Shown piece after piece: positions 33,001 through 62,041 of a DNA stretch of 64,000 nucleotides. Made by a program: the position numbers and the translations under genes. The DNA lies in NCBI GenBank assembly GCA_943737045.1, contig CALSFV010000017.1, positions 1,116,001 through 1,180,000 of the forward strand, read 5' to 3'. How positions within the stretch are numbered: the stretch's first letter is position 1; the number at the start of each line of letters is the position of its first letter. The DNA is from Parapristionchus giblindavisi (lineage: Eukaryota; Nematoda; Chromadorea; Rhabditida; Diplogasteridae). The notes under the pieces are model-generated. The model had not been told where the DNA came from. It searched no databases and saw only the letters and a program-made list of their open reading frames with translations.

Positions 33001-36000
33001 ATTGCTAATCGTACTTGTACTGTACGTGTATTGTAATTTACGTGCTCTCTCTTATTCTCTGATCAGTCTATAAAACCTATAAGAAAGAGTACGGAACAGC
33101 ATGAGTATGGTAACTACTACGCAAGCTGGCTCGGATACGAAAGTGAATAAAATTTACAGTACATGTACGATCAGCAATGTGATCATCACATATACCGTGC
33201 AGCTGCACTCCGATGGTGCAGAATAATCATATACGTTTAACATTGTAAAGAAAAACCGCTGAAAATATGCTTAAAACTAACGAAAAACAAAATTAACCGA
33301 ATAGGGATTACTGTAGGAGCACACCATAATTCACGACTTTCGTTATAAAAATGATTATTTCACATGAATTGTATTTTTTTAAAATTATGAATTTTAAACT
33401 AAAGATGCAATATAATATGGAGAAGCTAATGAGCAAATAAAAAATTTGCATTCGCCATGGGAAAACAGTGAGAATTAATTTAATGTGAATTTTTTTTCGA
33501 AAATTCCCAATTCCGGCCTTTGTTGTGCGTTGATCGAAAAATTCTCCTCGACAATAGTTTTTTAGAATTAGCCAAGGAGTCGAGTACACCAACTCCCGAA
33601 TGGATTGGATACGAAAGAAACTTTTTAGGAAAAGGCGCCAAATCGTGGTGTGGTCACCTCCTGAAGCGAATTTTCAATTGGAAGGAATTTCCAAGTACCA
33701 GTGAACTACACTCATGGAGCCTGTAATTATCATACATAAAACAGAAAAATCTATTTTTCATCGATACCGCACCTATGTCGATTTTCTCAGATAGCGTGTT
33801 ATAACATGTTGTACCCTACAGTGCGCGACATAATGATAAGACACCCCTAAAATTTTGAGATTCTGACCGAATGGCGAATGAAAATCAAAAGAGGTATATA
33901 CCATTTGAATCCACTCCTTGGATAACTAAGGTAGCCCACGTATGAGGAAATTCAATTTCCCGGTCAACGAGAAAATAATGATTTTCCGAAATTTTACCGC
34001 GACATAATGATAAGACACCCTGATTTTTTTCATGAAGTGCAATTTTTTTCAAACTTCTGCATAGCAGCAATAGGGCAACAATAGGTTAATAATCGATGTT
34101 ATGCCCCATTCTCCAGATTAGGCCAAAGGTGAGATTGGGCATGCTTCCATAGAGGGCAGAAAACAATTGCCACTCGATGTCGTCCCACTCCTTTTTGATG
34201 AAAGCCTTCAATTCGGCAACGGGTGCATACTGTTTGTTGTTCTTGTACACACGACGAACCATGATGCCCCATATGCTCTACATGTGGTTTATATCGGGGA
34301 GACCCGTCGGGCATGGGAGAACAGGGATGTTCTTGACTGCGAACAATGATTTCGAGGGGTGTTGGCATGAATGGATGCATTGTCTTTCTTCGAGACCAGA
34401 TGATGTACACGGTTCTTGCTCATGAATAGAACAAGGGTAGTCTGGTGCATCACGTGATACTCCGGATAGTCCATCCTGCTGGAGCTGAAGGAGATGGGTG
34501 GCTTGTTGAATTTTAGGAACGCGCCCAGAACATGACCGAAGTTCCTGCAGCTGAAATACCGCGGTTCGTTGAGAAAATCATGTCAGAAGCAGTTATAGCC
34601 ATCGGAAATATAAGGGTTGAACTTGTTCTTATCAGTGAATGCAATCAGAAACCGATAATTTGAAAATTTTTGAAAAAAATATAATGTACCGTATTGGGGG
34701 CGGGTTCCTAAAATTTGACATGCCGCCCATCTCCTTCAGCTCCAGCAGGATGGACTATCCGGAGTATCACGTGATGCACCAGACTACCCTTGTTCTGTTC
34801 ATGAGCAAGAACCGTGCACATCATCTGGTCTCGAAGAAAGACAATGCATCCATTCATGCCAACACCCCTCGAAATCATTGTTCGCAGTCAAGAACATCCC
34901 TGTTCTCCCATGCCCGACGGGTCTCCCCGATATAAACCACATGTAGAGCATATGGGGCATCATGGTTCGTCGTGTGTACAAGAACAACAAACAGTATGCA
35001 CCCGTTGCCGAATTGAAGGCTTTCATCAAAAAGGAGTGGGACGACATCGAGTGGCAATTGTTTTCTGCCCTCTATGGAAGCATGCCCAATCTCACCTTTG
35101 GCCTAATCTGGAGAATGGGGCATAACATCGATTATTAACCTATTGTTGCCCTATTGCTGTTATGCAGAAGTTTGAAAAAAAATGCACTTCATGAAAAAAA
35201 TCAGGGTGTCTTATCATTATGTCGCGGTAAAATTTCGGAAAATCATTATTTTCTCGTTGACCGGGAAATTGAATTTCCTCATACGTGGGCTACCTTACAA
35301 GGGAAGTCTTTTTAGTCTCAGTGAGACTTTTGCATAAGAGTATTTTTCCTCGATAAGTATTGGTAATATATGGACGAAACCAAAAAATTAGCTGCAGCCA
35401 TGCACTTTCAGATTTTATATAATTAATTGAAGTTTGTGAAAAAATTCTTCATTTTTTGAAGAAAAAAGGCACTGTGTAGGCGAAAAGAAGTGTATGAAAC
35501 AAGGCACTCCTGAAAGAACATTGACAACATGGCGGCGTGGTGTAGTGGTAGTATGTGCTCTTCTAGATCGGGATGTGGTTAGTTCGAGTACACCTATGGA
35601 CAGTTTACTTTTGCTCATTTTTATCAGCTTCGGACTTGTACTTTCGATCGAAAAAATAAAAAAATTTTTTTTTCATTTTATTCTCTACATTTTACTTTTC
35701 GTGCACTTTTCTCCTTCCGTTTACTTTTTCATTATTTTCGATATTTATCCGATATCTAATATCTTCTGCGAATTTTTTCAACATGACATATTATTAAAAT
35801 TATACATGCCAAATAGTATTTCAACAACAATGGTATCTGCCAAAAAACAATTCCAGTACAATCGACGATCACATATGTATCGAACATTTGATCAAAGAAT
35901 ACTTGGGACAGGGTTTCTCACAGATTACAACAAGATCTTTGGGGGAAAACATCTTTATGCTTCTACCGGAGTGAGAAAATGAGTGGGATGTGTATGTGGT

Positions 36001-39000
36001 ATATCCAGATATATCGAGACTTGGCAAAGGCATATTTGTGAGATGCATGGAAAAGAGGGGATTTGATCTGGTGGTAGATAAGAGATGTCATCTTGAGCAC
36101 GCACATACGTTTTGAAAGTTGAGAATAAAATGAAAAAAATTGTTTTTAAAATTTTTTCGATCGAAAGTACAAGTCCGAAGCTGATAAAAATGAGCAAAAG
36201 TAAAATGTCCATAGGTGTACTCGAACTAACCACATCCCGATCTAGAAGAGCACATACTACCACTACACCACGCCGACATGTTGTCAATGTTCTTTCAGGA
36301 GTGCCTTGTTTCACACACTTCTTTTCGCCTACACAGTGCCTTTTTTCTTCAAAAAATGAAGAATTTTTTCACAAACTTCAATTAATTTTATAAAATCTGA
36401 AAGTGCATGGCTGCAGCTAATTTTTTGGTTCCGTCCATATATTACCTATACCTATCGAGGAAAAATAGTCTCGTTCAAAAGTCTAAAAGATATTTCTCAT
36501 ACTTCCCTTGTTAGTTATCCAAGGAGTGGATACAAATGGTATATACCTCTTTTGATTTTCATTCGCCATTCGGTCAGAATCTCAAAATTTTAGGGGTGTC
36601 TTATCATTATGTCGCGCACTGTATTCTCTCGATAACATATTTGATCTTTGATCTTTGCCTGCAGTGTTTTGTCGTACTGCAGGTAAACTCGGTCCAAAAT
36701 GATCCTAGCTACAATTCAATTTTCGAATTTCCGGGTGCTTTTTTAAAGCTTGTAAACTTGCCGATTTCGAGTTTCTACTCTTTATTAAAGCGCCATGAAT
36801 TCTCTACTCGATAATATGAATGCAAATCTCACCTAAGTAATCAATAATGGCTGATGTATTCTTAGGAACACGTTGATCATGTTCGTGTCACAGCAGAGGC
36901 TGCCGTTCACAAGTTTGTCGCCAATTGGGATCTCGAACGAAAGCTCAACTTTACGATGCCTACGAGAAAGGAGGTTAGTGATGGTCATGGGTAATGTGCC
37001 TTGCTGCTAATTTTGACCTTTGTTTTGGCCGATGAAAGGGTGAATGATGATGAAACTCACCTCTAGATTGTCTAATTGCAATCTAATTTTTGGACATATT
37101 GCTAAAAAGTAACGTTGATCCCTGTCCTAGCAGTGATCTCGAATTCGTGTGCCTTGAATAATCTTTTATCGCTGATGTAGATTGGTGTTCATATTGAAAA
37201 GCACTTGAGATCATTGCTTAAGAGTTCATTCTTGATGATGAGCATGAAACGACGATCAGCCGGGTCTTGTCACTGTTTCTCATCGTCTTCACTTATTCAG
37301 GAGAAGGCAACCGCTCAGCAGCCCGTCATTCTGCGTAAACGACGTCAACGGATCAAGGGAGAGGTACGGTTGATTATCGATTGGAACAATGTACAGTAGT
37401 ACTACAGATTATTGATTTGTCTGATATTGTTTGGTGGAGAGACTATTTGATGAGCTTTTCGTTTTTATCAATGAACAAATTTTATCAAGGGTAATTATTA
37501 ATTGATTATTGACTAATTTATCAATAATCAATAATTGATCAATGGTGAATTATTGATTGCGCAATACATATACAAAAATATTGAATGATAATTCAGGTTA
37601 ACTGGAAGCTCTTCTCGTACCAATTCGCTCGTGATCACGCAAAGGCTGATCTGATATGGAATGAGAAGACGAGAGAGGAGTTCAGGTGAGAGAGTACCAG
37701 ACAGTCAGAGAGAATGATTAGAGAGTGGTTGAGTATGAGAGAGTTTGGCTGCTACGTTTAATGATTCATAAGATAAGTGTTTTACGGCATTGTTTTACCC
37801 AAAATTCACTCAAAAATGAAAATAATTTTGCCACAATTTACTCAAAAAAATTTGCATTACACCCACTCGGTTTTAATTTCCAGCGAAAATTCGCCCACAT
37901 ATGATTCATAAGTTCATGAGCATTTCACAAATTTCATTACAAAAAAACTGTTCTTGTTTGTGAAGAGAATATTGCATGTTTCAGTAAAAAAGAATCAATA
38001 AATGTAATGAATCAATCAATAAATGAAATTAATCAATCAATGCATGAGAAGAATCAATCGATAATTGCAGACACTCGATTCTGTCTGAAGTGCGCGCACT
38101 GGAGAGCGAGAAGGAGCAGATGATGTCGAAGACGCCCATCTCGTGGAACCACACCGAGTTCCAGGTAGGGTCCATTGGTCTTCAGTTGCTGCGTTTATCG
38201 ATTGACTGAAACGTGAATATAGCTGATGCGAGTTTCATTTTTAATTTGTTTGATGATTCGAATTTGCTCCCTACTATTATCTTTCTGATAACATTTCGAT
38301 TTATTTGTACGGTGTGAAACTAGGAAATGATGGGTGTATATATTTATCCGGTTTTAGGCTTAAAATTGGTTTCCCTCGTTTCTTCTGTCTTTACTAATAT
38401 AATATGAGACATGAATGCGACGGGTGTCTCCACTTGACCATCGAAGATTCGCTTTCATTGTAACAGTGATGGTCTATCAATATCCCAGGCCAAATGCGTG
38501 TACCTAGATTTTGGGTCAAAACGCGTGTGGGTAACCCGAATTTGAGATAAAACCCCAAAATCGTGAAAATTTCAAGAAAATCTCAATTTATCGTCCAATT
38601 TTGCGAGTGGGTAACCATGAAAGGCAAATTTTTGCGGGTGGGTCTATCCCATGGGATAGCCCATGTCTGCATTGTAATCATACATTTTCGGTACCCTCGC
38701 CGTTTTTTTATATAGTGGGTCAATTCTCGAAATAGGGTGGGTTGATTCACAAAATTTGTTATTTTCGCTTAAAAAAATCATTTTTAGCTTCTTTTTCATC
38801 AAGTGGCCTAAAATGGTCCTTATATAGTGAATCAATCCTCGCATTGCGAGGGTATGAAAATGTACGATTGTAATTGTATGGCTTTAGAACCGTTTGTCGC
38901 TTTCTTTGTCTACGAGAGAGTGTTGCCAGAGCGAAGAGTAAAATTAGCTTGTAGGTCTTTACATAGGTCGAAAAGTATGTTACAAAGTACCAAGCCTGAC

Positions 39001-42000
39001 CGCATTTTGAGCCTGCATTTCCCAAAAAATCGAAAAACCTGACCGCATTTGGAGACAAAATTTCACAAAAATCGAAAAACCTGACCGCATTTTGAGCCAA
39101 GTTTGCCTAAAATTGAAAAACCTGACCGCATTTTAAAATCCGATAACCTAGCTATTCGACCTATGGGTCTTTAATGCATCATACATCATAAAAATGTTTC
39201 TACAGCCAAGGGACGAGTGAAAATTAAATAAATGGCAAAACTGAAAAGAAAGCTTAATCTGTAAATATCAATCACTCAATCTTTGGCATTGTCAGGTTCG
39301 GGTGAAAATTATATGATCTAAAAATTAAATGAATTGTACGTTGAATTCAAATCTATATTTTATTTAGTTTATTTTCAACTTGTAAATTATAATGACTATA
39401 TTCTCTCTCATTGTCAGGTTGACTACCCCTCATTGGAGAGTGAGATCAAGATTGGCGACTACTATCTACGTCTACTACTGCAGGAAGGAGAGGATGAAGC
39501 CACGCCCATTCATGATGCGTTAGTACACATTTATATTTTATTATTTAAATATGCAAACTGTTAATATTCGTCTAAGATTGGATCGTGTTGATTTTATGTT
39601 TCACTAGGTTGAGATAATTAGTAAATGCTGCTGTTGCGCGATTCAAGCTGTAGTTCTCACAATGAGATCTCATAACATATTTTCTTCATCGATACTTCTC
39701 CATTTAATTATTTATTTATTTCATCAAATATAAATGTTTATAATCACATTAGTAACACAGGGAAGAGGGAATGGATTTCCGTCGCTTATACGCGGTTTCG
39801 GATTGGGCTCGGTGGCAGTTTTCTAAGGAAGGGGTTCAGGGACGAATTAGAGAAACTTTAATGATGTTGTTCAGAGTGGGTTACGGTAGGCAGTTGTGCA
39901 ACATATTTTATATGCGACCCTTAGTCTAATTCTGTCGTGATATTTTGATCTTTGATCTTTCTTTTTCCAGTGTGAACTTCTTCTCGGCAGTCTACCATCG
40001 GTTCTTGCTACCGTCTCGAGTGGATCTTCGATGCGTGTGTCTGTCAGCTATGGCCATTGCATACGAACGGTATGATGGAGAGAGGGTTACTGTAGTCAGA
40101 GTGGGTTACGGTAGAGATATTGTTGGGAACCGTAACCGTTCGTTAGCTGGTGCTAGGCGTTGTCTGAGAAGAGATTGATCTGTTAGCGAAATAGTATTGA
40201 TTGATTTATAATTGATTACAGTAGCCACATCACGATCGGATCGTTTCCGGACGCCAAACATTTTGTCGAGCTGCTGCGGAAGAGTACGATACCTGCGGAA
40301 CGTGATCGATTGGTAGGATGGATGATTTTATACACTTTTATTTTAAATATGTGGGAACTAACTCAGAAGTGCTTTATTGTTTCTTTTCTTATGGGTTTGC
40401 TGAAACCTGAAAGTGAGGGGTGAGGAGACTAGTCTCTTTGTCGTGTAATTCGTTCTTGACAATTGGTGTTTTGTAGACCAAACCACTAAGGTTAAGCTGC
40501 ATTTACATATGAGCAAGATCAGTTCCTCCCTGGGCAGTCCCATCTATTCCCCTTTGGTCTTGAAAGCCGTGATACATGCCTATGTTGAAGTGACTGATTG
40601 GCCCTTTTACTGAACAAGTTTAAATGTTTTCATATTGTAGATCTGTAGTATGTGAGTGATTATGAATGAGATGGTTTCAAAGATCAATCTATCCATGACT
40701 TTAAACGGCATGATTCACATACTGACGCTTGGTATATTCGCAGGTGCTCTTACTGTCAAAGCTCGCCCTCAACAAGGAGAACGCCCGAGAGCTCGTCAAT
40801 GCGGATCTGGCTCCCCAGCTCGTCGACTTGGCGGTGCTTGCCCATCTTCACGTCCAGAGGGCCAAGATCCAGGTACTTACTTACAGCACCTGGAGCTAGA
40901 GCGAGAGCTCCATTGCGTCATTTAAGACTTGATAGCGCAATGAACAGTAGTTGCCTTTTTCGGATTCAGTTTTGCATCCAGAAACCTTTGACAGAAAAAA
41001 ATTCGCTGATCTTTGATCTTTCTCTTGTAGAATCAATCGAACGTAATCGAAGCATCGGCAGAACAGATGGCGGAGGGTGGCGCCCTCGAGTGGTACTACA
41101 ACGATAAGGACTCCCAGAGACAGGGACCGTTCTCGTTTGATAAGGTACTGTAGGATTTGTTGGGTTACGGTAGGATTGTGTGGGGTACGGTATTGTGGCA
41201 TAAAGTTCTTGTCGTAGGCAAGTGATTTCTGTATTTCGAGCAACACAATTCTTTCGAATGCCTTGTTCAAAAGATAAAATCAATGTTTTACACATTCTCT
41301 CGCCTCTTTAGTATGTTTGGAGAAAGAGTATAAAGGACTTTAGATATACTTGCGAGACTTGTGGATTTCATGTTTCTGACTCCTTCTATTTGACATTGAT
41401 ATAATGCGCGATATTATACACGAATATTTCTTCGAAAAGTACGCTACAAACAACGAAGCGTGGCTGTATTGTGGGATTTTAAAACCCCTTTCCGCATTTT
41501 TGAAAAGTATTTGACCTATGGTCTGATTGACGTCCATACAATGATGTTCCCTTCCAGATGAAGGAATTGTACGCGGAGAAGGTGATCTTCGAGCGTACAG
41601 CCATCTGGGCGAGTGGAATGACCCAGTGGCAGTCACTCTCCGCTGTCCCACAATTCCGATGGACCGTATGCTGTCAGCAGGTAAGAGCGTGGTAGAGGCC
41701 ACTCGTGTATTTCGAGACCTAACAAGGGAACCTTTCGGTCTCGTTTTCATCACATGAAATGGCAATAGCATGACTGAAAGAAGTGTTCGATGCTGATTAG
41801 GAATCTGTTTTAAAACGTCGCCCAATCGGGCTGAGCTTCGAGAAAATCGATGTTGAAATTTAGGGGGTCGATTTGAAAATTCGCGAGGTCTCCTACACAA
41901 CAAATCCCGATGGGTTCGCTAACTCATCTATCAAACACGAAACCAACTGGCCGTGTAGTGTAGTGGATAAGGTGTCTGTATTGACTTTTGGCTGTCAGGG

Positions 42001-45000
42001 GTTCGATCCCCTTGCAGCAGTTTTCTTTTGCTGATTTTGTAGTTGTCAAGATCAACCGTTCAAGCTTGTTTGTCAGTGTACATCACTATGTATTGAGTTT
42101 CTCTTTGATGCTGGCTTGCGCTCTCTTCTATGCCATTAAAAGGCCTTTGCGCTTCAACCTATATCATGACGATCACACCTTCAATCGTCGTTGTCTTTCT
42201 CGCAGAATTCTGCCCTCCATCGTTGGATCCTTCTGACCACAATCGAAAGGATAGAAAGCTCGCTCAAGTCATCATCTCCAACCTTCGAGCTAATGATTCA
42301 TAGAGATAGATAATAGATAAGATATAGAGTAACCGATAAAGTGTGTTCTATTTACTGATTTCTTTTAAGAAAAAATATCACAGTAAAACATTTTAATCTT
42401 TCGGCAAGAACAAAATCAGCAAAAGAAAAATGCTGCAAGGGGGATCGAACTCCAGACAGCCAAAAGTCAATGCAGCCACCTTATCCACTACACTACACAG
42501 CCAGTTGGTTTCGAGTTTGATAGATGTGTTAGCGAACCCATCGGGATTTGTTGTGTAGGAGACCTCGCAAATTTTCAAATCACCCCCCCAAATTTCAACA
42601 TCGATTTTCTCGAAGCTCAGCCCGATTGGGCGACGTTTTAAAACAGATTCCTAATCAGCATCGAACACTTCTTTCAGTCATGCTATTGCCATTTCATGTG
42701 ATGAAAACGAGACCGAAAGGTTCCCTTGTAAGGTGTACTTATCAGACTTGAAAGTCTACTTCAAGTTAGACGTAAGTCTACTTCAAGTGATGTATATATA
42801 CTGTAATGCATTTCTTCAAATGCTCTTTCACTTGAAGTAGACTTAAGGCAAACTTCAAGTCAATGACTTATTTTAAGTAGGCTTCATGTTTTGAAATACC
42901 AGAGGCCAAACGAGTTTGGCCAGGTGCATAAGTGGGCGGAGTGTGACAGCTTTGCATTCAACTAGACGACATTGTTTGTAGGCTCCTCCTGTTGCGGGGA
43001 CGGGTGAACAGTGTGGTGCAGTGCCGCTCTACAATCTGACCCAACTGGCTACCGTATGTCTGGATATTCTCACACAAATGGCTTCGTTCTTCCCCTCGAG
43101 GTAGGAGACACTATTGATTTATGCCCATTTCTGAAATTGTCGGTATAATTTATCACCGAATTACATACATTGGACAACAAGTAAACCTGTGGAATTGGTG
43201 TTCCGAGATCTTCATATACTTGATGAATTTTGATTTTTTTAAATTCGATTTTGTGCTCTTTTTCAGGGATATCAACGGTTGTGTCGTGCGGCCGATGCCC
43301 AAGATCAAGAAGGTATGCTTGTCGAATGTCTGATCCCTCTGACGACCCACCGTACTCTTACCGTGTCGTTGTAATATCTGTCCTTGCAGGTGCTCACCGA
43401 GCCTGCGCTGCTCTACCAGATTGTTCAGCTGCTGCTGACGTACGATCCACAGATTGTCCATCGAGTAGCCACTCTACTGTACATGATCATGCAGGTACGG
43501 TAATAGAAGATTACTGTAGAAGTTGAATCCCCCCTTTGAGATAATGTATCCATTCAGTTTAATATACTGGTCAAACTTCTCTTTTAGGAACCATGACCAT
43601 TGATTGTATATTAATTGTATTTAGGCTCCACCCCTTCTCAGATTATTGATTGGTTGGGTATTGATTGATTATTCAGGACAATCCATTCCTGCCTCGTCTG
43701 TACCTCTCTGGCGTCTTCTTCTTCATTCTCATGTACAACGGCTCGAATGTGTTGCCTGTGGCTCGTTTCCTCCACTACACCCATCTCAAGCAGGCCTTCC
43801 GATCCGCCATTGTGAGTACGGTAGCGACGGCGCCGCGTCAGTCTGATGCGTTGCGGTTTTGGGATCTACTACAGTATAATCTATAATAACCTCTACTATA
43901 GCCACGATTGGGGACTCAATGCCAGTCGGTGCTCGCTCCACTGCTTCCCGAAGCCGCCACGTACTACCTCGAGGAGTATGGCCCCGAGAAGTATGCTGAG
44001 GTACGGTAGCTCATGTACACTATAATGGTTATTGATTGTCTAAAATCGCCACTTCCATAGAGACGATGAGAAGTAAATCGATCGAAACACAAATTTGGCT
44101 GTCTTAGCGAATCGTGTCTGGAATGTTTTGTCAGAGCTCTTTTGTGTGAACGTCGAAAAATGTGACGTCACAACATCTTTGGCAAACGGCGAACGCGTAT
44201 GACGTCACATTAGTCGAGACATACGGTCTCTGGATTCTAAACCCGAGTCCGATCAGAGAATCATGAACCAAATGTAACAATTGTGATTATAGGTGTTCCT
44301 GGGTGAATTCGACAATCCGGAGATCATTTGGAATACTGAGATGAGACGTCATCTCATTGAGAGAATCGCCCTTCATGTGTCTGACTTTACCGGAAGACTC
44401 ACGAGTAATGTCAAGGTACGAACAGTTTATTCGGTTACGGTGCTATTTTTTTAAATTTTCGATGCCGTTTGTTATCGATTAGAGGTGTGGTTTATTAGTT
44501 GTGTTTTATGTATTTTATTTATCTTACTTTGAATAAATGTGACAACAAGTATTGCCAGTTTGGCTATATTCAAGTACCAATTGTAAACTGTTTAGCCATC
44601 GTAAAATTGTGATTCATACATTTCGAAATACGAATCAATCTCCAGCCTCCTTCATGATCTACCATTACAGGCACTCTACCAATACTGCCCCATTCCACTC
44701 ATCGATTATCCCGAATTGGATCATGAACTCTTCTGTCACGTCTACTATCTGCGTCATTTGTGCGATCGTCAGCGATTCCCTGATTGGCCGATCCGAGATC
44801 CGGTCAGTCATAGTAATCATAATGTTTTAGAGGTACACCCGATCTAATTTTAATCTCTCCGCGGGAGTAAAATTAGCTCGGGTGTACCCTTAGTAGGTTC
44901 ATACATTTTCGGTACCCTCGCCGTTTATTTTTATTTAGATCATGTTAACACATTGTGATTGCGCAATGTGTTAACATGATCTTTTTGTTAGTTTGAGCGC

Positions 45001-45860
45001 GTTGTACTGTGTAGTTTGATCTTTGATCTCTCATCAGATTCCCTTCCATTGTAGTTTGATCTTTGATCTCTCATCAGATTCCCTTCCTCCGTTCGTGTCT
45101 CGCCGCATGGCACGAAGAGATTGAGAAGAAACCACCAGCGATGAGTGTAGAGGACGCCGCACACGTACTCGGACTCAAAACTGATGATGAGTTAGTTGAT
45201 CTTTGATCTTTTAACCATAGTTGATCTTTGATCTTTGATCTTTTTAACCATGATTGTTTTTCGGTCTTTTTAACCATAATCTTTGATATATGATCTATTG
45301 TACCTCACTTTTGTCTTTCTACATCGGAAATGCATTCGTCCCAGTGGTTTCTAGTTTCGCCCTCTTTAGTTGTGCTCCTCCCCCCTCAGTAATAAGTTCT
45401 GATAAGCCATAATTTGTGCACACATACATTTACTTTCCAAACTCGTTGACTTCTCGTTTCTTGGTTATTACATCTATTGGATATTCCGATGCTGTTTTGA
45501 TCCGTGCCTCTAACTGTTTTCATATAGTCAATCGTATGTATTGCAGTGCATGGCGCGATCAATCGACCATCCGTCGTGCCTACTTCAAATTGGCCGCCAA
45601 GTACCATCCTGACAAGAATCCCGAGGGTCGCGAGATGTTCGAGAAGATCAATGCCGCCTATGAGGTATACGGTATTTGTCTGGGTACGGTAGCGGTGGAT
45701 TTTGTACGGTACCTATGTGTAATGTACGGCTAACGTTGGATATTTAGTATAAATTTTACTAGTAAAGATCAAAGATCAAAGTGTGAAAGGGCTTTGTACA
45801 AGAACATTTGTTCTATTGTGGCAATTAATGTGATAAATGGCAAGAGATTTAATAATAATG

Positions 45861-45897
<37 letters not shown>

Positions 45898-51800: not shown

Positions 51801-54800
51801 GAATTATAAAGTAAAATCATAGTATGCATAAAACGGATCGATCGATTGAATATAATAGATGATTATCGATTGATTGTACAGGTGGTCTGCTGTACATTCT
51901 TCGTGTGATCATCCAACGACCGAACGAGGCTACGGCTGGACTGAGATTATCTGCTGCTGAACTATTGGCAAAGCTGCAAGTCAGTTCTTTTCATGCGTTT
52001 TACCTGTTAAAATCTTGTTCAAAAGGCGTTGTAAAAAGTGGAATCTACTATTCTTTTATCGATTTTGAACAGATTATTTATAACATTGATTTATTACCTG
52101 TTAAAAAATACAGTGCGCATAATAATACTTTTACTTTTATATGTTTTATATCTGAAACGTTATTGTGCATGCTTACTGAAATTGTAGACTACAATAAATT
52201 AAATAATGTATTGTAGGCGGACAAGTTGACGGGTCCACGTTGGCAACGTTTCATCGTCAAATTCCTTCCACCCATATTCGCTGACGCATTCAGAGACTCC
52301 CCAACCACTGCGTATGATTTATTGATTTTAGGACTTTCAGTCCTTTTCCAATTATTGATTTTTAGTGAATTATCGATTTTTAGAATTCAATAATCGTCAT
52401 TGTAGCTTGTCGATGTTCGATTCAACAAGTGAGAATCCAGAATTGATCTGGAACGACGCGTCGAGAATGGCTGTGAAAGCTGCTGTGGAGAAGTCACTGA
52501 AGGAACTGGCTGAGAGACAACGAGTTGATGACGAGGCCAAATGGGATATGGTAAAGAGATTACGGTAGTTGTGGTGGGGGTTACGGTAGTGATGAGGCCA
52601 AATGGGATATGGTAAGGAGATTACGGTAGTTGTGGTGGGGGTTACGGTAGTGATGAGGCCAAATGGGATATGGTAAGGAGATTACGGTAGTTGTGGGGGG
52701 GGGGGGGGGTAAATTAGTTACAATGGCTGTCGTAATTGTGGTGCTAGTGGATTGTGTTTGTTATAGAGTTTGAGAGAAACATGATTATTGTTTAGTGACA
52801 ACTATTGATTATCGTGTTTGTGTTTTACAATCCGAATGAACTTCATCTATTTACAGTCACTGGTGGCAGCGGATGATTGGTGTGCGTATGGTGATTCCGT
52901 ATCCGGCGAATTGGTTGTGGGCGGAGTCTTCATCCGGCTCTTCATCGCCAATCCCGGATGGGCCGTGCGACACCCGCGACAGTTTGCCACCGAACTCATT
53001 GAGAAGGTAGGTAGTACTACGATAGTTACACTACTGAGCGGATCATGAACTGACTTTAATGATTACGGTAATAAATCGATTGATATTCAGGCGCTCGAAT
53101 CTATGCGTGCCAAGCCGAATACGGTAGCGGCGGGAGATTTGAATACGCTGACAACTGCCTTTGTGGAATTGATACGACACCATCCCAATACTGCTGATCA
53201 GGTGAGGAATTATTGATTAATTTCCCGTGTTTGGGGGGAATAGAAAACATTGAATAATAGCACATCTGGGTAGACTAGGTAATCTAGGCAGATCGCTGTT
53301 TTGGTGTCTCAATTAATGGAACAGATTACTGGTTCTTTTAATACTCGATGTGCTTGTTAGGTAAAGAACACCTATTTCTGTTTCATAATTTCAGTTGCCC
53401 GCCCAAGGGTATCTTCCTCAGTTCTGTACAGCAATGACATCGGCGACACCGACAACAGCCCGAGCGGCCATTCTGATGCTCCATCAATTGGCGGAAAATA
53501 CGGTAAATATATGATAATTGCCTGTTGAATTGTGGTTGCAGTGTAGTTATAGCAGAGGTGCGGTACAACTGTTGCCGGTATTCATTTTGGGGATGGAATA
53601 TGCGTTCTCTAACTCTTTATCAATAAAAAAATCAATATTGTAAATGAGACTGAATTGTGTTCTTGACAGGTGTGCGCTGATGCATTTGGTCGACTGAATT
53701 GTATTGAGGGTATCAAGAAGTGCATGGAGATACAGCCAAGTGAGTATTTTCTTTTATTTTCATAAATATCGGTAAGAAACGAAACGAAAAGGCGAGAGAC
53801 TTATTCTTTTTGCGACTTTCGAACAGAGCAAAAGTAATGGGAACAGTGAGTGGGTGAGAGGTTTCATGCTACTGTAATGTGACTGTTACCCGACGGTCTC
53901 TCCATTTTACACACTACTTCGCTGTTCTCTAAAAACATTCGACGATCTCAGCTTGATTCGTAATGGTGGTTTCTCGCATTGGTTACTGTAAAGAATCAAT
54001 AAGTTAAGTACTGTAATTCTCAATCAATAAATCGATTTCAGCTCTTATGCATGAGGCCGCACACGCTCTCAAATGTCTGATGAAGAGGAATAACACGGGA
54101 GATCTCGCTGCGCAGCTGCTGTCAACGGGAATGATCGATTTCCTGCTGCGGGTTCTGGCTGGAAAAGTGGATGGTACGGTATTTTTAGGGGCTATAATTA
54201 GAGTGGATATGTTTTATTGATTGATGTGTATTTGGTGGAAATACATCTTATTGTTGGATTCATAGAGTTCCTCGGTTGGTTTGAGTTTGATTACGGTATT
54301 ATCGATTGATTATTGATTGATTTCAGGTGCAAATTCGCCAGCAGCACGAGCAGAGATTGTTGATGCACTCAAGGTGATTGCGGGTTTCAACTTTGTTTTA
54401 TATTTTGAACAATCATCTTATTGTTAATCGAATTGCATTCTGTTCTCAATTGAAATATCATATTTTCCATGTCGAAGTTAGAATCAGTAATTAATATTAT
54501 TATTGTTGTTATTGTTATTCCATTCTACTTGAGAGTGCATGTCTTGATCTGGACAAGGGAAGTGAGATATCGGCCAAGTTGGACGCATCTCCCGTCTGGG
54601 CTCAGTACAAGGATCAACGACACGATCTGTTCCTACCCGCGGCGAGGACCCATGCCATACAAGGTTGGTGTATGGTGTGGTGGTGTCGAGTGAATGGGAA
54701 ACGGCGTCGGGGTTACTGTAATTTGATAAGTTCCTCTTTCTTGTTCGCCAAAGCAATACCCGCTGATTTTCTGTTACTAGTTGTTTTCAATTGTAGCTTA

Positions 54801-54966
54801 TTTCATAATTGAATTGGTTTATAGAAATTTTCGATCTGTCAATCAATAATCTCTACTCTTAGGTGGCTCTTCTGGTGTCGCTGGTTATCTCACCGAAGGC
54901 ATGTTCAATCCTCCACCAATCAATAATGTGCCACCACCAATGGACAATGCCCCGCCCCCACTCTAA
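24166..54966 (+). CDS. rme-8: RME-8 / DNAJC13, endosomal J-domain protein, complete
   Basis: RME-8 is a large peripheral endosomal protein that recruits Hsc70 through its J domain and acts with SNX-1/retromer in endosomal sorting and clathrin dynamics. Sixty-nine exons in consistent phase give about 2282 residues. The start [20 protein letters not shown] matches the PH-like N-terminus. A GYF-type block ([19 protein letters not shown]) lies near 980-1035. The J domain is near 1305-1370 with HPD at about 1350-1352. Four IWN-type repeats lie near 779, 1219, 1657 (IWDN) and 1965, and the tail is Pro-rich. Exon starts/ends: 24166-24242, 24335-24410, 24777-24842, 25078-25212, 25512-25586, 25660-25722, 25982-26035, 26559-26701, 27090-27249, 27567-27658, 27735-27786, 28079-28190, 28576-28658, 28895-28969, 29211-29311, 29595-29739, 29962-30024, 30355-30468, 30902-30968, 31119-31202, 31368-31513, 32200-32322, 36866-36973, 37301-37363, 37597-37685, 38071-38164, 39418-39518, 39971-40069, 40222-40312, 40744-40872, 41031-41144, 41558-41680, 42982-43100, 43267-43312, 43390-43494, 43677-43811, 43902-44000, 44293-44415, 44671-44802, 45078-45190, 45547-45664, 45914-46013, 46726-46811, 47151-47252, 47586-47660, 47836-47952, 48197-48280, 48601-48664, 48746-48832, 48999-49102, 49451-49564, 49826-49933, 50391-50523, 50750-50860, 51087-51138, 51290-51355, 51418-51491, 51549-51623, 51882-51979, 52217-52311, 52406-52550, 52857-53006, 53091-53201, 53395-53502, 53670-53739, 54042-54173, 54327-54373, 54534-54663, 54863-54966. 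Individual edges may be off by a base. Exons 34 (46 nt) and 55 (52 nt) are unusually small. Confidence 0.95.
26282..26302. repeat. Homopolymer G run in rme-8 intron 7
   Basis: About 21 consecutive G on the plus strand. Such runs are prone to sequencing error and can form G-quadruplexes on the coding strand of the intron RNA. Confidence 0.9.
27025..27076. repeat. ATT microsatellite in rme-8 intron 8
   Basis: About 17 perfect ATT units end just before the acceptor of exon 9, so they form most of its pyrimidine-rich tract. Confidence 0.95.
27366..27487. mobile_element. Short inverted-repeat MITE with GTTTTACACACTCTC core
   Basis: Ends ATGTTCAAAAG and CTTTTGAACATCGCAT are inverted copies. The interior contains a GTTTTACACACTCTC motif also found near 10620-10640 (minus-gene 3' flank), 41280-41305 and 61030-61048. 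Confidence 0.55.
27821..27905. mobile_element. Small palindromic MITE, CCGAGC/GCTCTGGC family
   Basis: Starts ACACCCCGAGCTA and contains CCGCTCTGGCAACACTCTC with its inverted partner AACCAGAGCGG. Relatives lie at 46895-47005, 49603-49682 and, in minimal form, 44832-44889. Confidence 0.6.
31674..31815. mobile_element. Palindromic MITE with paired TGACGTCA sites, rme-8 intron 21
   Basis: Ends TATCCATGAAC and GTTCATGGATA are inverted copies. TGACGTCA octamers lie at 31717-31724 and 31770-31777. The insertion is absent from the second rme-8 copy, whose intron runs directly from the left to the right flank. Confidence 0.7.
31855..32048. mobile_element. hAT-like MITE (CATAGGTCGAA family), rme-8 intron 21
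   Basis: Ends CATAGGTCGAA and TTCGACCTATA, with an 8-bp duplication GTATTTGT at 31847-31854 and 32049-32056. The second rme-8 copy has the empty site with a single GTATTTGT (near 57300). The interior is a short tandem array of CCTGACCGCATTT units. Confidence 0.92.
32371..33799. mobile_element. Palindromic element in rme-8 intron 22
   Basis: Arms of about 0.6 kb pair around a centre near 33090. Ends resemble ACACTATCTGAGA and its complement, flanked by TATAA on both sides (32366-32370 and 33800-33804). The second rme-8 copy lacks it. Open frames in the arms (such as 32588-32872) are mirrored in both arms and show no family signature. Confidence 0.8.
35531..35600 (+). ncRNA. tRNA-like module in H1 left arm
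   Basis: An A-box-like TGGTGTAGTGG and a B-box core AGTTCGAGTAC lie at normal tRNA spacing. A mirrored copy is at about 36211-36276 on the minus strand. The acceptor stem is not convincing, so it is tRNA-like rather than a tRNA gene. Confidence 0.5.
36211..36276 (-). ncRNA. tRNA-like module in H1 right arm
   Basis: Inverted copy of the left-arm module, with the same A-box and B-box-like blocks. Confidence 0.5.
38682..38862. mobile_element. MITE with TACATTTTCGG ends, rme-8 intron 26
   Basis: Ends TACATTTTCGGTACCCTCGC and GCGAGGGTATGAAAATGTA pair. The interior repeats a TATATAGTGGGTC-like unit. A relative lies at 58624-58808, and half-elements near 44902 and 48885. Confidence 0.75.
38962..39165. 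mobile_element. hAT-like MITE (CATAGGTCGAA family), rme-8 intron 26
   Basis: Same ends as the copy at 31855, with a different 8-bp duplication GGTCTTTA at 38954-38961 and 39166-39173, and the same internal CCTGACCGCATTT array. Diverged relatives appear near 41420-41520 and 62390-62490. Confidence 0.92.
41949..42020 (+). ncRNA. tRNA-like module in H2 left arm (best tRNA likeness)
   Basis: TAGTGTAGTGGATAAGG resembles a D-arm/A-box and GGGTTCGATCCCC a T-arm/B-box with a good stem. Between them TTGAC and GTCAG can form an anticodon-type stem with an 8-nt loop. The acceptor stem is weak. Confidence 0.55.
42431..42504 (-). ncRNA. tRNA-like module in H2 right arm
   Basis: Inverted partner of the left-arm module with a few changes in the T-stem and the anticodon-stem region. 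Confidence 0.5.
44832..44889. mobile_element. Minimal 58-bp palindromic MITE, rme-8 intron 39
   Basis: Almost perfect hairpin from GGTACACCCGA to its complement. The same end sequence appears in longer members at 27821 and 46895. Confidence 0.7.
45011..45090. repeat. 40-bp tandem duplication of a splice acceptor (rme-8 exon 40)
   Basis: Two adjacent 40-bp units each contain TTGATCTTTGATC, the CATCAG acceptor and the first exon bases ATTCCCTTCC. The downstream CAG at 45075-45077 keeps the RME-8 frame. Use of the upstream one at 45035-45037 would add 40 nt and shift frame. Confidence 0.9.
45851..45903. repeat. AAT microsatellite near the end of rme-8 intron 41
   Basis: Imperfect AAT/GAT run ending about 10 bp before the acceptor of exon 42. 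Confidence 0.9.
46895..47005. mobile_element. Palindromic MITE, CCGAGC/GCTCTGGC family, rme-8 intron 43
   Basis: Contains CCGCTCTGGC and the inverted GCCAGAGCGG, within GGTACACCCCGAG-type ends. Confidence 0.6.
52531..52713. repeat. 61-bp minisatellite built from an rme-8 exon end and splice donor
   Basis: Three tandem units each contain the last codons of exon 61 (GAGGCCAAATGGGATATG), its donor GTAAAG or GTAAGG, and two TTACGGTAG motifs. The third unit degrades into a G run of about 13. The first donor at 52551 keeps the frame; the others do not. Confidence 0.92.
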
Positions 54967-55917
54967 GTGATGACGTCATTGATCGATCGATCGATAATCT
55001 GTCTGTCTGTCTGTAACTCTTGCGTACTCGTCCACTCGTATTTTTGTCAATCGATATCCACGCACAAGTTGTTATTCTGTACAAACCTTTCGTCCTATTT
55101 ATTGTGCCTATTTGCCTTATTATTTTCTACTTTATTTTATTTTGTTAATTAATTTTTGCGTGTTGTATTCATCCAGAATATTCTATTCAGAGTAACTTAT
55201 ATTATAATTATCGATTTTTCACTCAGTTTCTTATCCTTGATTATATCGCCCATTCTCGCTCTTATCCACTCTCTGCACAGTGCCTTGCAATAATTGTTCA
55301 CAATATCTGGGTACCCATCACTCCTTTCCGTTTTGTATACAGTATCCCACAGATGTATTCTAGAGATTTTATTGATTGATTCGTCAGTCAAAATGTTCAT
55401 TTATTGATTCATCCATTCATGCTTATCTCGATCGCTTCATCCCACATAATTCATCCATCCATCATCATCTCTCGTTTTCCATTTTGAATATTGATTTATC
55501 GATTGAAATCTGAATATCTATACATATTTATCATAGAGTAGTTAATATATATCGTAATTCTTGCTGATCATTCATTATCCAGTGACTGTATTGTATTCGA
55601 TCCGATTGATCATTTTGATTACAGTATAATTTAAGATGTAAGAAGATGTGATAGGAGAGTGATTTTACGGTTTTTAAATTGTTTTTAATGAATAATAAAA
55701 AAGGTGAATGTATTGGTGGTGTGGTCTTCTGCATTATTGAGGTTTGAGAAAGATTTGTTTTTTTTGGGGTTCAACCCCCAAAGACTTGTAAGAAATCCCA
55801 AGTTTGAGGTGACACAAGGACAGACACTGGCCAGAGTGTTGAATGCTTTCCGATATAATCAATTTTATAATTGTTTATATGTTTTAATTATTGGAGATAG
55901 TATTCACAAAATCTATA
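54967..55917. other. rme-8 3' untranslated region and flank up to the duplication breakpoint
   Basis: AT-rich DNA follows the stop codon. An AATAAA lies at about 55694. No further gene was seen before the second rme-8 copy begins near 55918. Confidence 0.65.
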
Positions 55918-58623
55918 TATGCTACTACAGAAACGTGAAAATGACGTGTGCATAATTGCCAATGACAGTATGCCGTAGATATGAAATAGTTATCCAGTTG
56001 CGATAAGGAAACAACCAACTCTCAAGCAACGATATAACAACATTATCCATTATCAGGAACGACAAACGGGATGGTTGGTTGTGGCATCGATGCTTGACTT
56101 CCTCACCTACGCTGTGTGTGCACCATACTCGGAGACTACTAGTGGAGAGACATTCGATATGATTCTCAAGGTAGTACGGTAGGATGGGATGGGGATACGG
56201 TAGGATTACGAGGAAGCAGGGATATGGTAGACAAATATATACGTGTTTTATTGATTGGTCGAAACCACAAAATGAGGGCTATTTACGATCGGTGATAATG
56301 ACATAAGTCTTCATTATGACACGTTGATTCTGTGTTTCTATCATGCTTCAACTTTTATGTTTTTCCAGTTCCCTTGATTACTTATCTAATTGCGAGAAGA
56401 GTTTCACAATTTTAGAGATTGTACGCTCAATTTATGAATGTCAAATATAATTAATAATGGCAGTGTAGCAACCGAACGAGTTTCATAGACTTTTTTTTCG
56501 TTTTACATGGTTTTGAGTTCCCCGCATTAGGATCTCGATCATTTCAGATGGTTGCAGCTCGCGGTCGCGCATTCTACTCGCTCTTCCAGGCCAAATCTAT
56601 GACCATTGTTAAAGGTATACGCCTGTGATTATTGATTTTTCAATGAATGATATACAAGAGTCACCGTATATCGGTCCATTTGGTGATTGCTTGTTGGATT
56701 ACTCTATTGATTTTTCGTACTTGATTGATTACAGTACAGTATGATTGTGATTTGTGATTATCGATTGATTGATTGATATTCAGGTGATGGTATGGTGATG
56801 AGAGCGATCATCGAGGAGAGTGATGTGGAGACGAGCAAATCGATGCAGACACTCGCGCTCACTCAGGGTACGGTAGGGGACTAATCGGGAACTGACTTTA
56901 TTTTTTATCCCTGATCTTTGTGGTGTATAATAACAAGATGAAATTATTTGGTACTGTAAATTGATCTTTGATCTCTTTGACGAGAGTCTGATCTTTGATC
57001 TTTTGAGAGTCTGATCTTTGATCTTTTGGGAGTCTGATCTTTGATCTTTCAGGTGCATTCCTCTCCCATCTAGAGATGGCTCTTCTCACAACGGGTCGTG
57101 ATCTACGAGTACTCACGAATCGACAGCTCTCTGGTCATTTGATTGGCCTATGGATAGCCCGCCAATGATCTGCTCAGTCGATGTTTGGTGAGTGATCTTT
57201 GATCTTTGATCTTTGGCATATTCGTGTAACACATTATTTCGCTGTATGTCTATGTATCAGTGGGAACAGTGTGAGGAAAGCAGGAGATACACGTTATAAG
57301 TGTATTTGTGATCAACCCGTCAAGTTCATGTTTCATGCTGCCCTTAACGTGACTTTGGTGCACTTTTTGTCGATGAAATTCCGAAAAAGTTGTGTATAAC
57401 TTATTCGTTCAGCCCCGTGGTCTACTCGACTTCCTTCTCTCACACGACAAGGTACCCGTATCGGAGATGGACCTACTCGTGCCTCGGAACAATCTAGAAG
57501 TTGCTACAAATGAGCAGAACAAGAGTGTTGTCAAGGTGATTATCGATTGATTATATTGATTTATTGGGTAGTATAAGATAAAACATGTTTTACCCTATTC
57601 AATAGATAACATATTTGATATTTGTTCTTTAACTCTGCCCAAAATAATCCCAGCTACAATTGAACTTTCGAGTTTCCGGGTGCTTTTTTAAAGCTTGGAA
57701 ACTTGCCGATTTCGAGTTTCTACTCTTTTTTAAAGATCCATGAATTATCTACTCGATAATCTCTCCAAATTAATCAATAATGATTGATGTATTCAAAGGA
57801 ACACGTTGATCATGTTCGTGTGACGGCAGAGGCTGCGGTGCACAAGTTTGTCACCAATTGGGATCTCGAACGAAAGCTCAACTTTACGATGCCTACGAGG
57901 AAGGAGGTTCATATAATAATTAATAATTTATGCGTTTTACAAGAAAACACGGTACAGAAGAGAGAAATATAATATATAGATTGATTGTTAGTGGGTAATG
58001 TGCCTTGCTGCTAATTTTTATCTTTGTTTTGGCCCCTGAATCATGGAACTTACTTCTGGACTGTCTAATCACTCCAATTTTTGTGGCATATTGCTAATAT
58101 ATAGTATTTTGCTAATGAATATCATGTCGATTACCAAAGTTCAAGTGGAGATTCACTGTTTCTTACGAGTTCATTCTTGATGATATAATGAGCATGAAAC
58201 GGCGATCAGCCGGGTCTTGTCACTGTTTCTCATCGTCTTCCCTTATTCAGGAGAAGGCGACCGCCCAGCAGCCCGTCATTCTGCGCAAACGACGTCAGCG
58301 AATCAAGGGAGAAGTACGGTTGATTATCGATTGGTGTAACAGTAGATATAGTAGTATTACAGATTATTGATTGTTTGGTGGAGAGACTATTTCTTGAGCG
58401 TTTCGTGTTAATCAATGAGTAAAGCATATTAGCTAGGATAAATACTAATTGATTGATTTATCGATCAATAATTGATCAAAATGAATTGCTCGAAATACGA
58501 AAATATGGATTGATTATTCAGGTTAACTGGAAGCTTTTCTCGTACCAATTCGCTCGTGATCACGCAAAGGCTGATCTGATATGGAATGGGAAGACGAGAG
58601 AGGAGTTCAGGTGAGAGAGTGCC

Positions 58624-58808
58624 AGGCATACATTTTCATATCCTTACAAGGTGAGGATCGACCCACTCTATACGGCTCATTTTCAGGGTCGACCCACTAT
58701 ATAGAACTCATTTTTTTAATGTGAAAGATTACAAATTAAGCCAAAATAACGATTTTTCTAAATCGACCCACTATATAAAAATAATTCGGTGAGGGCACCG
58801 AAAATGTA
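58624..58808. mobile_element. MITE with TACATTTTC ends, second rme-8 copy
   Basis: Ends TACATTTTCATATCC and GGCACCGAAAATGTA; the interior has three GACCCACTATATA-type units. It is absent from the matching intron of the first copy. Confidence 0.7.
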
Positions 58809-61279
58809 TGGTGCCAGTCAGAAATACGGACTAGAGAGTGTGTGAGAAAGAGAGAATGTCTGCTATATTTAGTGATTCATAAGCTTTTTTTTTACACTAC
58901 TCGCTTTTTTTCCAACGAGAGAGTAAATCAATAAATGGAATGTATCAATCGATAATTGCAGACATTCGATTCTCTCTGAAGTGCGTGCACTGGAGAGTGA
59001 AAAGGAGCAGATGATGTCGAAGACGCCCATCTCGTGGAACCACACCGAGTTCCAGGTAGGGTACATTGGTCTGCAGTTACTCCGTTTATGGATTGACTGA
59101 AACGTGAACGCTGCTGGTGCGAGTTTCTTGTTTTCTGATTCGAATTTTCACCGTCCTATTATCTTTCTGATAACATTTCGATTTATCTGTACAGCGTGAA
59201 ACTAGGAAATTATGGGTGTATAAATTAAATAAATTGTACAATGAATTCAAATCTGTGGTTATTTATTTATTTTATTTATTTAGTTTACTTGTAAATTATA
59301 ATGGCTATATTCTCTCTCATTGTCAGGTCGTCTACCCCTCATTGGAAAGTGAGATCAAGATTGGCGACTACTATCTGCGTCTACTGCTTCAGGAAGGAGA
59401 GGAGGAAGCCACGCCCATTCATGATGCGTTAGTACACATTTATATTATTTATAATTTAAATATTTTTATAAATCCATTTTTTTTTCAAGTAGAGCAAGCT
59501 AAGAAACAAGGCAGTTTAGCTCACTTTCAATGTTCGACCAGGAGCGGATCACGTTGATTTTATGTTTCACTAGGTTGAGATAATTAGTAATTGCTGCTGT
59601 TGCGCGATTCATGCTATCTGTCCGACAATGAGATATCATAACATGTTTTCTTAATCGATACTTCTGATAAGTTGCGGAATAGATTTTATATGCGACAATT
59701 AGTCTAATTCTGTTGTGATATTTTGATCTTTGATCTTTTTTTCCAGAGTGAACTTCTTCTCGGCAGTCTACCATCGATTCTTGCTACCGTCTCGTGTGGA
59801 TCTTCGATGTGTGTGTCTGTCAGCCATGGCGATAGCCTACGAACGGTATGATGGAGAGAGGGTTACTGTAGTCAGAGTGGGTTACGGTAGAGATATTGTT
59901 GGGAACCTTAACCGTTCGTTAGCTGGTGCGAGGCGTTGTCTGAGAAGAGATTGATCTGTTAGCGAAATAGTATTGATTGATTAATAATTGATTACAGTAG
60001 CTACATCACGATCGGATCGTTTCCGGACGCCAAACACTTTGTTGAGCTGCTGCGGAAGAGTACGATACCTGCGGAACGTGATCGATTGGTAGGATGGATG
60101 ATTTTATACACTTATATTTTAAATATGTGGGAACTAACTCTTTATTAGAAGTGCTTTATTGTTCCTTTTCTTTTGGGTGCTGAAACCTGAAAGTGAGGGG
60201 TGATGAGACTAGTCTCTTTGTCGTGTAATTCGTTCTTGACAATAGGTGCGTTGTAGACCAAACCACTAGGGTTAAGCCGCCCCTACATATGAGCAAGATC
60301 AGTTCCTCCCTGGGCAGTTCCATCTATTCCCCTTTGGTCTTGAAAGCCGTGATACATGCCTAGGTTGAAGTGAATGATTGGCCCTTTTAATGAACAAGTT
60401 TAAATGTCTTCATATTGTAAATCTGTAGTATGTGAGTGACTATGAATGAGATGATTTCAAAGATCAATCTATCCTTGATTTAAAATGGCACGACTCACAT
60501 ACTGACGCTTGGTATATTCGTAGGTACTCCTACTGTCGAAGCTCGCCCTAAACAAGGAGAACGCCCGAGAGCTCGTCAATGCGGATCTGGCTCCCCAGCT
60601 CGTCGACTTGGCGGTGCTCGCCCATCTTCACGTCCAGAGGGCCAAGATCCAGGTACTTACTTGCAGCTGCTAGAGCTCCATTGCATCATTTAAGACTCGA
60701 TAGCTCATTGTCAGTTTTACACCCAGAATCCTTTGATAACAAAGAAAAATATTCGCTGATCTTTGATCTTTCTCTTACAGAATCAATCGAACGTAATCGA
60801 AGCATCGGCAGAACAGATGGCAGAGGGTGGCGCCCTCGAGTGGTACTACAATGATAAGGACTCCCAGAGACAGGGACCGTTCTCGTTTGATAAGGTACGG
60901 TAGGATTCAGTAGGGTACGGAACGATTGAGTACGGTGCTATGGCATAAAGTTCTTGTCGTAGGCAAGTGATTACTGTATTTCGAGCAACAAAAGTCCTTC
61001 GAATGCTCTGTTCAAAAAATAAAATCAATGTTTTACACATTCTCACGCCTCTTTACAAGGGAAGCGTAAGAAATATCTTTTAGACCTATTGACGAGAGTA
61101 TTTTTCCTCGATAGCTATAGGCAATATAAGGTCGGAACCAAAAAATCAGCGGCTGGCATGTACTTTCCGATATTATATAATTAATCAAATTTTGTACTTT
61201 CGAACGCGCTGTTTTCAGGCTGTGTGTGCTATGAAATAAGGCTCCCCTGATAGAGCCCTTGACAGAGCAGTGAGAACAT

Positions 61280-61346
61280 GGCGACGTGGTGCAGTGGCAG
61301 CTTGTTCTCTTCTTGATCACTATGTGAGTGGTTCGAATACACCTAT
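61280..61346 (+). ncRNA. tRNA-like module in H3 left arm
   Basis: A-box-like TGGTGCAGTGG and B-box-like GGTTCGAATAC at tRNA-like spacing. The flanking ACATGGCG and ACACCTATGGAC match H1. Confidence 0.5.
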
Positions 61347-61973
61347 GGACATTTTTCTTTTGCGAATTTTTAAACGTTCCGGACTTGTAATTTTGATCAG
61401 AAAAAAAAATTTAAAATCTTTTTTCACAATTTTTATGTAGCTGTTGAACTTGAATTTTATCATTTAGGAAAACAAAAAATAAAGCAACATTTCGTTTACC
61501 AGCATAGTGATCATTTAATTTTGAGAGAGTTCATCTGTACCAAGCGGCTACGGAATAATAATATTTTGATAACTTGTGCATACAATGTTTGGTCAAACTT
61601 TCTAAACTAGTCTTCCTGTCCACAGGGACAATTAATCAGTGAGATTATTTACGAAATGCTCCAAATGTGAATGAATAGCCAATTGCAATACGGCTAAGTT
61701 ATGGCCATAGGTTTATGAAAAAAATATAATATTACGCCCGTTGATAGGTTTGGATTCACCTTTTAGACTCTACCGATGTCCCCGTGCAAAACTCTCTCAA
61801 AATTAAATGATCACTATGCTGGTAAACGAAATGTTGCTTTATTTTTTGTTTTCCTAAATGATAAAATTCAAGTTCAACAGCTACATAAAAATTGTGAAAA
61901 AAAGATTTTAAATTTTTTTCTGATCAAAATTACAAGTCCGGAACGTTTAAAATTAGCAAAAGAAAAATATCCA

Positions 61974-62041
61974 TAGGTATATTCGAACCACTCACATAGT
62001 GATCAAGAAGAGAACAAGCTACCACTACACCACGTCGCCAT
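61974..62041 (-). ncRNA. tRNA-like module in H3 right arm
   Basis: Inverted partner of the left-arm module with the same B-box core and a slightly changed A-box. Confidence 0.5.

Follow-up and report, generated by a model that had tools for sequence, protein, structure and literature searches.

The window analyzed here is a 64 kb stretch of the Parapristionchus giblindavisi genome (contig CALSFV010000017.1, positions 1,116,001 to 1,180,000; the source assembly comprises 251 Mb in 703 contigs), and it contains three fold-back elements, H1, H2 and H3. These are non-coding members of a large and diverse group of Tc4/Tc5 DNA transposons. We propose, with a probability of roughly 0.6 and on the strength of comparisons between sequences, that the terminal inverted repeats (TIRs) of this group contain a small, inward-reading unit of the RNA polymerase III (Pol III) type 2 kind. 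Its parts, in order, are an A box, a B box ∼44 nucleotides (nt) further on, and a T-run with the motif TTTTGC at about the place where a tRNA gene would end. The layout of a Pol III type 2 promoter, with A box, B box, tRNA spacing and T-run, is present in 25 of 28 loci selected by their transposase domain and in nine arm groups, and the module is retained far more than chance would allow among arms that are unrelated in other respects.

The Module in the Three Elements of the Window

The copies of H1, H2 and H3 in the window are taken as non-coding. Their parts are as follows.

35298..36510, H1, Tc4/Tc5-type fold-back element with ends CAAGGGAA/TTCCCTTG in inverted repeat
35295-35297 and 36511-36513, TTA duplications of H1
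35538..35548, plus strand, H1 left-arm A box, TGGTGTAGTGG
35581..35591, plus strand, H1 left-arm B box, AGTTCGAGTAC (family consensus GGTTCGAGTAC)
35609..35614, plus strand, H1 left-arm TTTTGC motif in a T-run region, a putative Pol III terminator
36260..36270, minus strand, H1 right-arm A box, TGGTGTAGTGG
36217..36227, minus strand, H1 right-arm B box, AGTTCGAGTAC
36194..36199, minus strand, H1 right-arm TTTTGC motif, read from the sequence
41723..42728, H2, Tc4/Tc5-type fold-back element
41720-41722 and 42729-42731, TAA duplications of H2
41956..41966, plus strand, H2 left-arm A box, TAGTGTAGTGG
42000..42010, plus strand, H2 left-arm B box, GGTTCGATCCC, matching the consensus in full
42021..42031, plus strand, H2 left-arm T-run with TTTTGC
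42485..42495, minus strand, H2 right-arm A box, TAGTGTAGTGG
42441..42451, minus strand, H2 right-arm B box, AGTTCGATCCC
42419..42424, minus strand, H2 right-arm TTTTGC motif, read from the sequence
61056..62263, H3, Tc4/Tc5-type fold-back element
61053-61055 and 62264-62266, TTA duplications of H3
61287..61297, plus strand, H3 left-arm A box, TGGTGCAGTGG
61330..61340, plus strand, H3 left-arm B box, GGTTCGAATAC
61358..61363, plus strand, H3 left-arm TTTTGC motif
62022..62032, minus strand, H3 right-arm A box, TGGTGTAGTGG
61979..61989, minus strand, H3 right-arm B box, two mismatches to the consensus
61956..61961, minus strand, H3 right-arm TTTTGC motif, read from the sequence

An initial annotation of this DNA had reported an A-box-like block and a GTTCGA core at tRNA spacing in every arm, and this is borne out: in each of the six arms GTTC lies 44 or 45 nt from the block, and both parts lie on the inward-reading strand (leftmost base of the core at 35582, 42001 and 61331 on the plus strand, and at 36221, 42445 and 61983 on the minus strand). 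The A box TGGTGCAGTGG that it gave for H3 is found in the left arm only, the right arm having TGGTGTAGTGG. A scan of the window for A and B boxes combined, with at most one mismatch, gave three matches, namely both H2 arms and the left arm of H3, while ten Markov windows gave none at this strict setting. Both arms of H1 and the right arm of H3 fail it, their B boxes having two mismatches. GTTCGA by itself is frequent, occurring at 31 places on the two strands of the window. Because the arms of each element are inverted repeats with 92-96% identity, a module in both arms of one element is no independent evidence; such evidence comes from the comparison of unrelated arm groups.

The Module Across Coding Tc5_C Loci

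Loci were picked by the Tc5_C domain alone, and comprise 28 of at least 148 matches: the eight best (L073-L080) and 20 chosen for spread from roughly the next 55 (L081-L100). The module lies, reading inward, in the C-terminal-side end of 25 of these (24 by best hit, and L092 by a separate reading, its best hit being outside the element), compared to 20 of 560 Markov controls and to three of 28 when the same scan is read on the opposite strand. Its distance from the terminus is 199-244 nt, except in L080 (189) and L085 (177); the terminus of L094 is altered and the scan yielded no distance. Both ends have the module at no more than one mismatch in L073, L074, L075, L076 and L078, and likewise in the coding elements L101/L088 and L103/L077, as well as in L102/L094. 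The box sequences vary from locus to locus yet fit the consensus (TAGCCAAGTGG, TGGTCGAGTGG, TGGCGCAGTGG, TGGTGTACTGG). Additional A/B modules occur outside the element ends at L075:2957 (TGGCGCAGTGG/GGTTCGATCCC) and in the flank of the L092 element (TGGCTTAGTGG/GGTTCGATTCC), and may be either tRNA genes or fragments of other ends.

The control was a set of 18 loci with other transposons (14 DDE_3 and four DDE_Tnp_4; 59 kb), in which a single match was found, in L111. An H1-type arm is split there (L111:1014-2988): positions 1014-1086 hold its first 73 nt and the remainder starts at 2688, and the interruption of ∼1.6 kb contains the DDE_3 transposase match, a transposon nested in a Tc4-type arm. 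Since the DDE_3 match splits the H1-type arm, the module of this locus belongs to the invaded arm. Among the same controls, L107 contains 142 nt of an arm of the type of group S8 (described below), which is too short to extend as far as the module.

Conservation Between Arm Groups

Nine arm groups were compared through one arm each (H1, H2, L074, L079, L082, L086, L088, L093 and L095); the Tc5_C domains of these groups often share no more than 30-45% identity. For the sequence upstream of the module, the observed alignment score is reached by five or more of 200 shuffles in 33 of the 36 group pairs, while for the module this is so in only three of 36; the median z is 0.5 upstream and 6.5 in the module. 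The initial annotation had noted that the module is kept although the rest of the interior of H2 differs from that of H1 and H3. Eight representative arms had been compared beforehand, and within groups the identity is higher for the module than for the upstream sequence, at 0.86 vs. 0.73 (H1/H3), 0.90 vs. 0.80 (H2/S6), 0.83 vs. 0.74 (H2/S5), 0.86 vs. 0.71 (S5/S6) and 0.94 vs. 0.82 (S4/S7).

Because these alignment windows had been anchored on the A box, a box-free test was added, using eight-letter words with at least three G or C that are shared within one mismatch. There are 29 such words in at least eight of the nine groups (one in all nine and 28 in eight), compared to zero or one in eight shuffled sets, and 28 of the 29 are in register with four motifs: the terminus, the A core, the B core and TTTTGC. 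The A-core word GTAGTGGT lies at +4 from the A box, the B-core word GGTTCGAT at +42 to +45 in eight of nine groups, L079 being the exception, and the TTTTGC word TTTTGCAG at +68 to +73, again in eight of nine. In H1, TTTTGCAG matches elsewhere and TTTTGCTC is in register instead, while the word TTTTCAGC is scattered and without register.

Putative Terminator and Extent of the Inverted Repeat

In the 40 nt that follow the B box, TTTT is present in all 25 scored modules, compared to AAAA in three of 25, and the T-run is positioned at about the end of a would-be tRNA gene. Of the 25 modules, 24 also have TTTTGC no more than 45 nt past the box; only L092 does not, and it was scored at a site outside the element. 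The motif, ∼25 nt past the B boxes of L073-L100, is as strongly kept as the boxes themselves, which exceeds what a plain T-run would need.

Eight of 14 elements have an inverted repeat that stops at 319-348 nt, shortly past TTTTGC (∼301-313 nt), and in coding elements of three groups it stops at 326-348 nt; in five of 14 it extends to 394-505 nt. In one element (L104/L093) it ends at 273 nt, inside the B box, so that the two arms differ past this box, and TTTTGC is retained in both despite the divergence.

Points Against a Pol III Unit

Several observations weigh against the reading of the modules as Pol III units. Three of the 28 loci miss the module, with a deleted A box in L083, two A-box mismatches in L089 and a spacing of 40 in L100, although a recognizable remnant can be seen by eye in each. 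The left end of L104 has no match at one mismatch or fewer, with boxes and TTTTGC visible by eye. The module is weak (TGGTGTAGTGT/TGTTCAATCCC) in group S8 (L079, L080, L087, L089 and L097), which is also the group without the B-box word; both ends of L079 and L080 bear only this weak form. Only seven of the nine groups, rather than all, have the A-core word of eight letters in register, and the nine groups are not all independent, since H2, L082 and L095 (groups B, E and I) share an upstream stretch and the three alignable upstream pairs are all among them. A scan with the general consensus was used to locate the boxes, so their fit to it partly reflects how they were picked, and the DNA evidence is from one genome.

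Conservation within families is also no help to this reading. With 37 arms each in the H1, H2 and H3 families, no excess conservation of the boxes was found, and 84% (H1), 26% (H2) and 13% (H3) of same-shaped windows are conserved at least as well; both boxes are as good as the consensus in 12, 25 and 29 of the 37 arms, respectively. The excess for which the initial annotation had proposed a test among family members is thus absent, and the signal lies between families instead. This result fits long-term selection on active elements together with decay of dead copies.

At the level of RNA structure, the modules do not resemble tRNA. No Rfam tRNA match was found in the modules of the window (E up to 5) or of eight loci (E up to 10), these two sets being the scope of the scans among the window and L073-L100. 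Pairs of the T-stem outside the B box number 43 of 81 in 27 modules, at the null level (39.3 ± 3.3), which speaks for the boxes being kept as DNA sites, while acceptor-stem pairs number 109 of 189, slightly higher than the null of 93.7 ± 7.3 in sequences that are related to each other. ARAGORN found no tRNA in the window; at a very loose setting it reported 24 of the 27 modules as candidates, in part on the wrong strand, and this result was set aside. The Rfam scan of the eight loci did match a true tRNA gene (51.3 bits) at L079:2401-2472, which lies ∼120 nt beyond the terminus of a Tc4/Tc5-type element. A tRNA gene or pseudogene read as RNA was rejected on the lack of an Rfam match in the scanned modules and of a T-stem. 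A reading of the B box as a CENP-B box was considered by eye and dropped.

The Elements Belong to the Tc4/Tc5 Group

The initial annotation had called the elements Harbinger-like. Harbinger elements duplicate TWA (TTA or TAA) at their target. We took 60 extra copies, 20 per family, from among the best genome matches of H1, H2 and H3, which brings the total to 63 elements, and counted duplications in the 47 with two exact CAAGGGAA/TTCCCTTG ends; the 16 set aside are eight with a single arm and eight without an exact end. Identical trinucleotides flank 42 of the 47 and every one of them is TNA (12 TGA, 12 TAA, 11 TTA and seven TCA), while the flanks of the other five differ. TGA or TCA thus makes up 19 of 42 duplications, outside the TWA of PIF/Harbinger elements, and C precedes and G follows the duplication in 30 of 42. 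In Caenorhabditis, the target of Tc4 is described as C-TNA-G with duplication of TNA, which the Tc4/Tc5 elements (TcMar-Tc4 group) have in common with those analyzed here, and the title of a work cited there gives Tc4 the same fold-back shape (PMC11071193).

Transposase domains point the same way. Transp_Tc5_C has at least 148 scored matches in the genome, compared to at least four for the Harbinger-type DDE_Tnp_4, and no Tc4-type end or module was found at the four DDE_Tnp_4 loci among the matches listed. Coding relatives have the Transp_Tc5_C and DDE_1 domains, as Tc4/Tc5 elements do: the open reading frame (ORF) of L102 matches Tc5_C at 42.3 bits and DDE_1 at 22.3 bits (cut-off 22), and the arms of the element read at L102 and L094 are, by eye, of the H1/H3 type. 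L101 matches Tc5_C at 47.5 bits and DDE_1 at 17.6, under the cut-off; in L104 Tc5_C alone matched. The H2 copy L052 contains a Tc5_C match (C259:270356-270502). A genome-wide search with DDE_1 gave no matches, in a setting where no positive control gave a signal. Among proteins with an organism name, the closest belong to Caenorhabditis brenneri (48% and 44% identity), and no relatives of the L102 ORF turned up in an IMG/VR scan. Because of the TNA duplications and the Tc5_C/DDE_1 transposases of coding relatives, the elements are Tc4/Tc5 and membership in Harbinger was rejected.

In two of the copies, L029:118-1330 and L047:372-1403, the left and right flanks form an inverted repeat with mirrored flanking bases (TAA on the left with TTA on the right, or vice versa), as if the inverted duplication that makes the fold-back had extended into neighboring DNA.

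Mechanism and Alternative Explanations

Retention of the boxes and the T-run, without retention of cloverleaf pairing, leads us to infer that the boxes are under selection as DNA sites of TFIIIC/Pol III. In the proposed mechanism, TFIIIC would assemble at both ends of active elements and Pol III would join it there, Pol III being included because the terminator T-run is kept. A short RNA of ∼90-100 nt, identical from either arm, would be the product. The ends may be kept open or clustered in this way, and so be usable by the transposase even in silent chromatin, while dead single copies would not be maintained and their boxes would decay within families. The assembly might alternatively insulate the element or yield a useful RNA. 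That the module is kept at a nearly fixed place while most of the end sequence around it changed suggests that the elements use the tRNA-gene machinery of the cell.

The foremost rival is that TFIIIC binds without transcription, with the modules serving as insulators or as tethers against heterochromatin, as at the extra-TFIIIC sites of C. elegans. Those sites are reported mostly to contain both boxes (PMC6950938), and RNA structure is not kept in the modules. Mere binding would not require a terminator, however, and the T-run is on the transcript strand in 25 of 25 modules, while AAAA occurs in three; we therefore consider binding alone rather unlikely, though it deserves more weight than any other alternative.

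Inner binding repeats are present in other Tc/mariner elements, and the modules could be such sites for the transposase, resembling tRNA promoter boxes by chance. Their near-fixed position, presence at both ends and distribution along transposase groups would agree with this. Chance would nonetheless have to explain why both blocks match the consensus of Pol III promoters in general, why their spacing is that of a tRNA gene, with a T-run about where such a gene would end, and why this fit spans transposases with C-terminal domains as diverged as those of the nine groups, which makes the explanation improbable. Still less probable is a passive relic, left by the ancestral capture of a tRNA gene or of a tRNA-derived short interspersed element (SINE) and functionless in the copies. 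Such a relic would account for the flat conservation within families and for the decayed boxes of one group and several copies, but neutral sequence should diverge like the arm around it, and the arm is unalignable in 33 of 36 pairs, while the module is alignable in 33 of 36.

The initial annotation had held that twin promoters of a Harbinger element produce complementary RNAs across the loop, and of this only the inward reading of both modules stands; the TNA duplications, the Tc5-type transposase and T-runs soon past the B box in each arm make it almost certainly wrong. Since the T-runs are inside both arms, each arm would give the same short RNA and complementary RNA would need read-through past these T-runs and the loop, and the complementary-RNA model was rejected.

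Relation to Known Systems

Cut-and-paste transposons are usually viewed as a Pol II gene between two transposase-binding ends. The elements themselves are of an already known type, and the paired Pol III unit in Tc4/Tc5 ends appears, from the sequences compared, to be new; the literature covered, which is partial and has the original Tc4/Tc5 papers outside it, holds no report of Pol III A/B boxes in these ends.

The modules share with tRNA genes the box consensus, near-tRNA spacing and a T-run past the B box, and differ in that those scanned have no Rfam tRNA match and do not keep the T-stem outside the box. Internal A and B boxes are also a feature of tRNA-derived SINEs. There they head a retroposed unit, unlike the boxes described here, which are inside the TIRs of cut-and-paste elements with fixed TNA duplications. 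Closer by description are the 504 extra-TFIIIC sites of C. elegans, with Box-A reported in 90% and Box-B in 87%; 225 of them overlap repeats, 214 of these being CeRep3, suspected tRNA pseudogenes (PMC6950938). Both systems have dispersed sites with A and B boxes, often in repeats, that are not active tRNA genes, although Tc5 is absent from the main text of that source and no link to transposon ends was seen there (PMC6950938).

If the Pol III unit is real, a host machine would be added to the transposition or survival of a deeply diverged transposon group, and nematode genomes would have a mobile source of TFIIIC sites. The origin of many non-tRNA TFIIIC sites in C. elegans then becomes checkable against public chromatin immunoprecipitation data. 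A bolder extension, which we offer tentatively and regard as possible rather than probable, is that Tc4/Tc5 elements of nematodes, or perhaps of ecdysozoans, ancestrally had one working Pol III unit per terminal repeat to assemble TFIIIC/Pol III at both ends, and that dead ends would be a main source of dispersed nematode TFIIIC sites, CeRep3 included.

Other Observations in the Window

H1 is inserted in the right arm of an outer palindrome (33817-36623) whose arms of ∼710 nt are 33817-34526 on one side and 34698-35297 plus 36514-36623 on the other. CTTAG, the unoccupied target of H1, is present in the left arm of this palindrome, with one substitution near 33907, and again, in exact form, near window position 2148. 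A hairpin at 63524-63656 matches mir-1263 weakly (34.5 bits, compared to a gathering score of 95) and is probably another small palindromic repeat.

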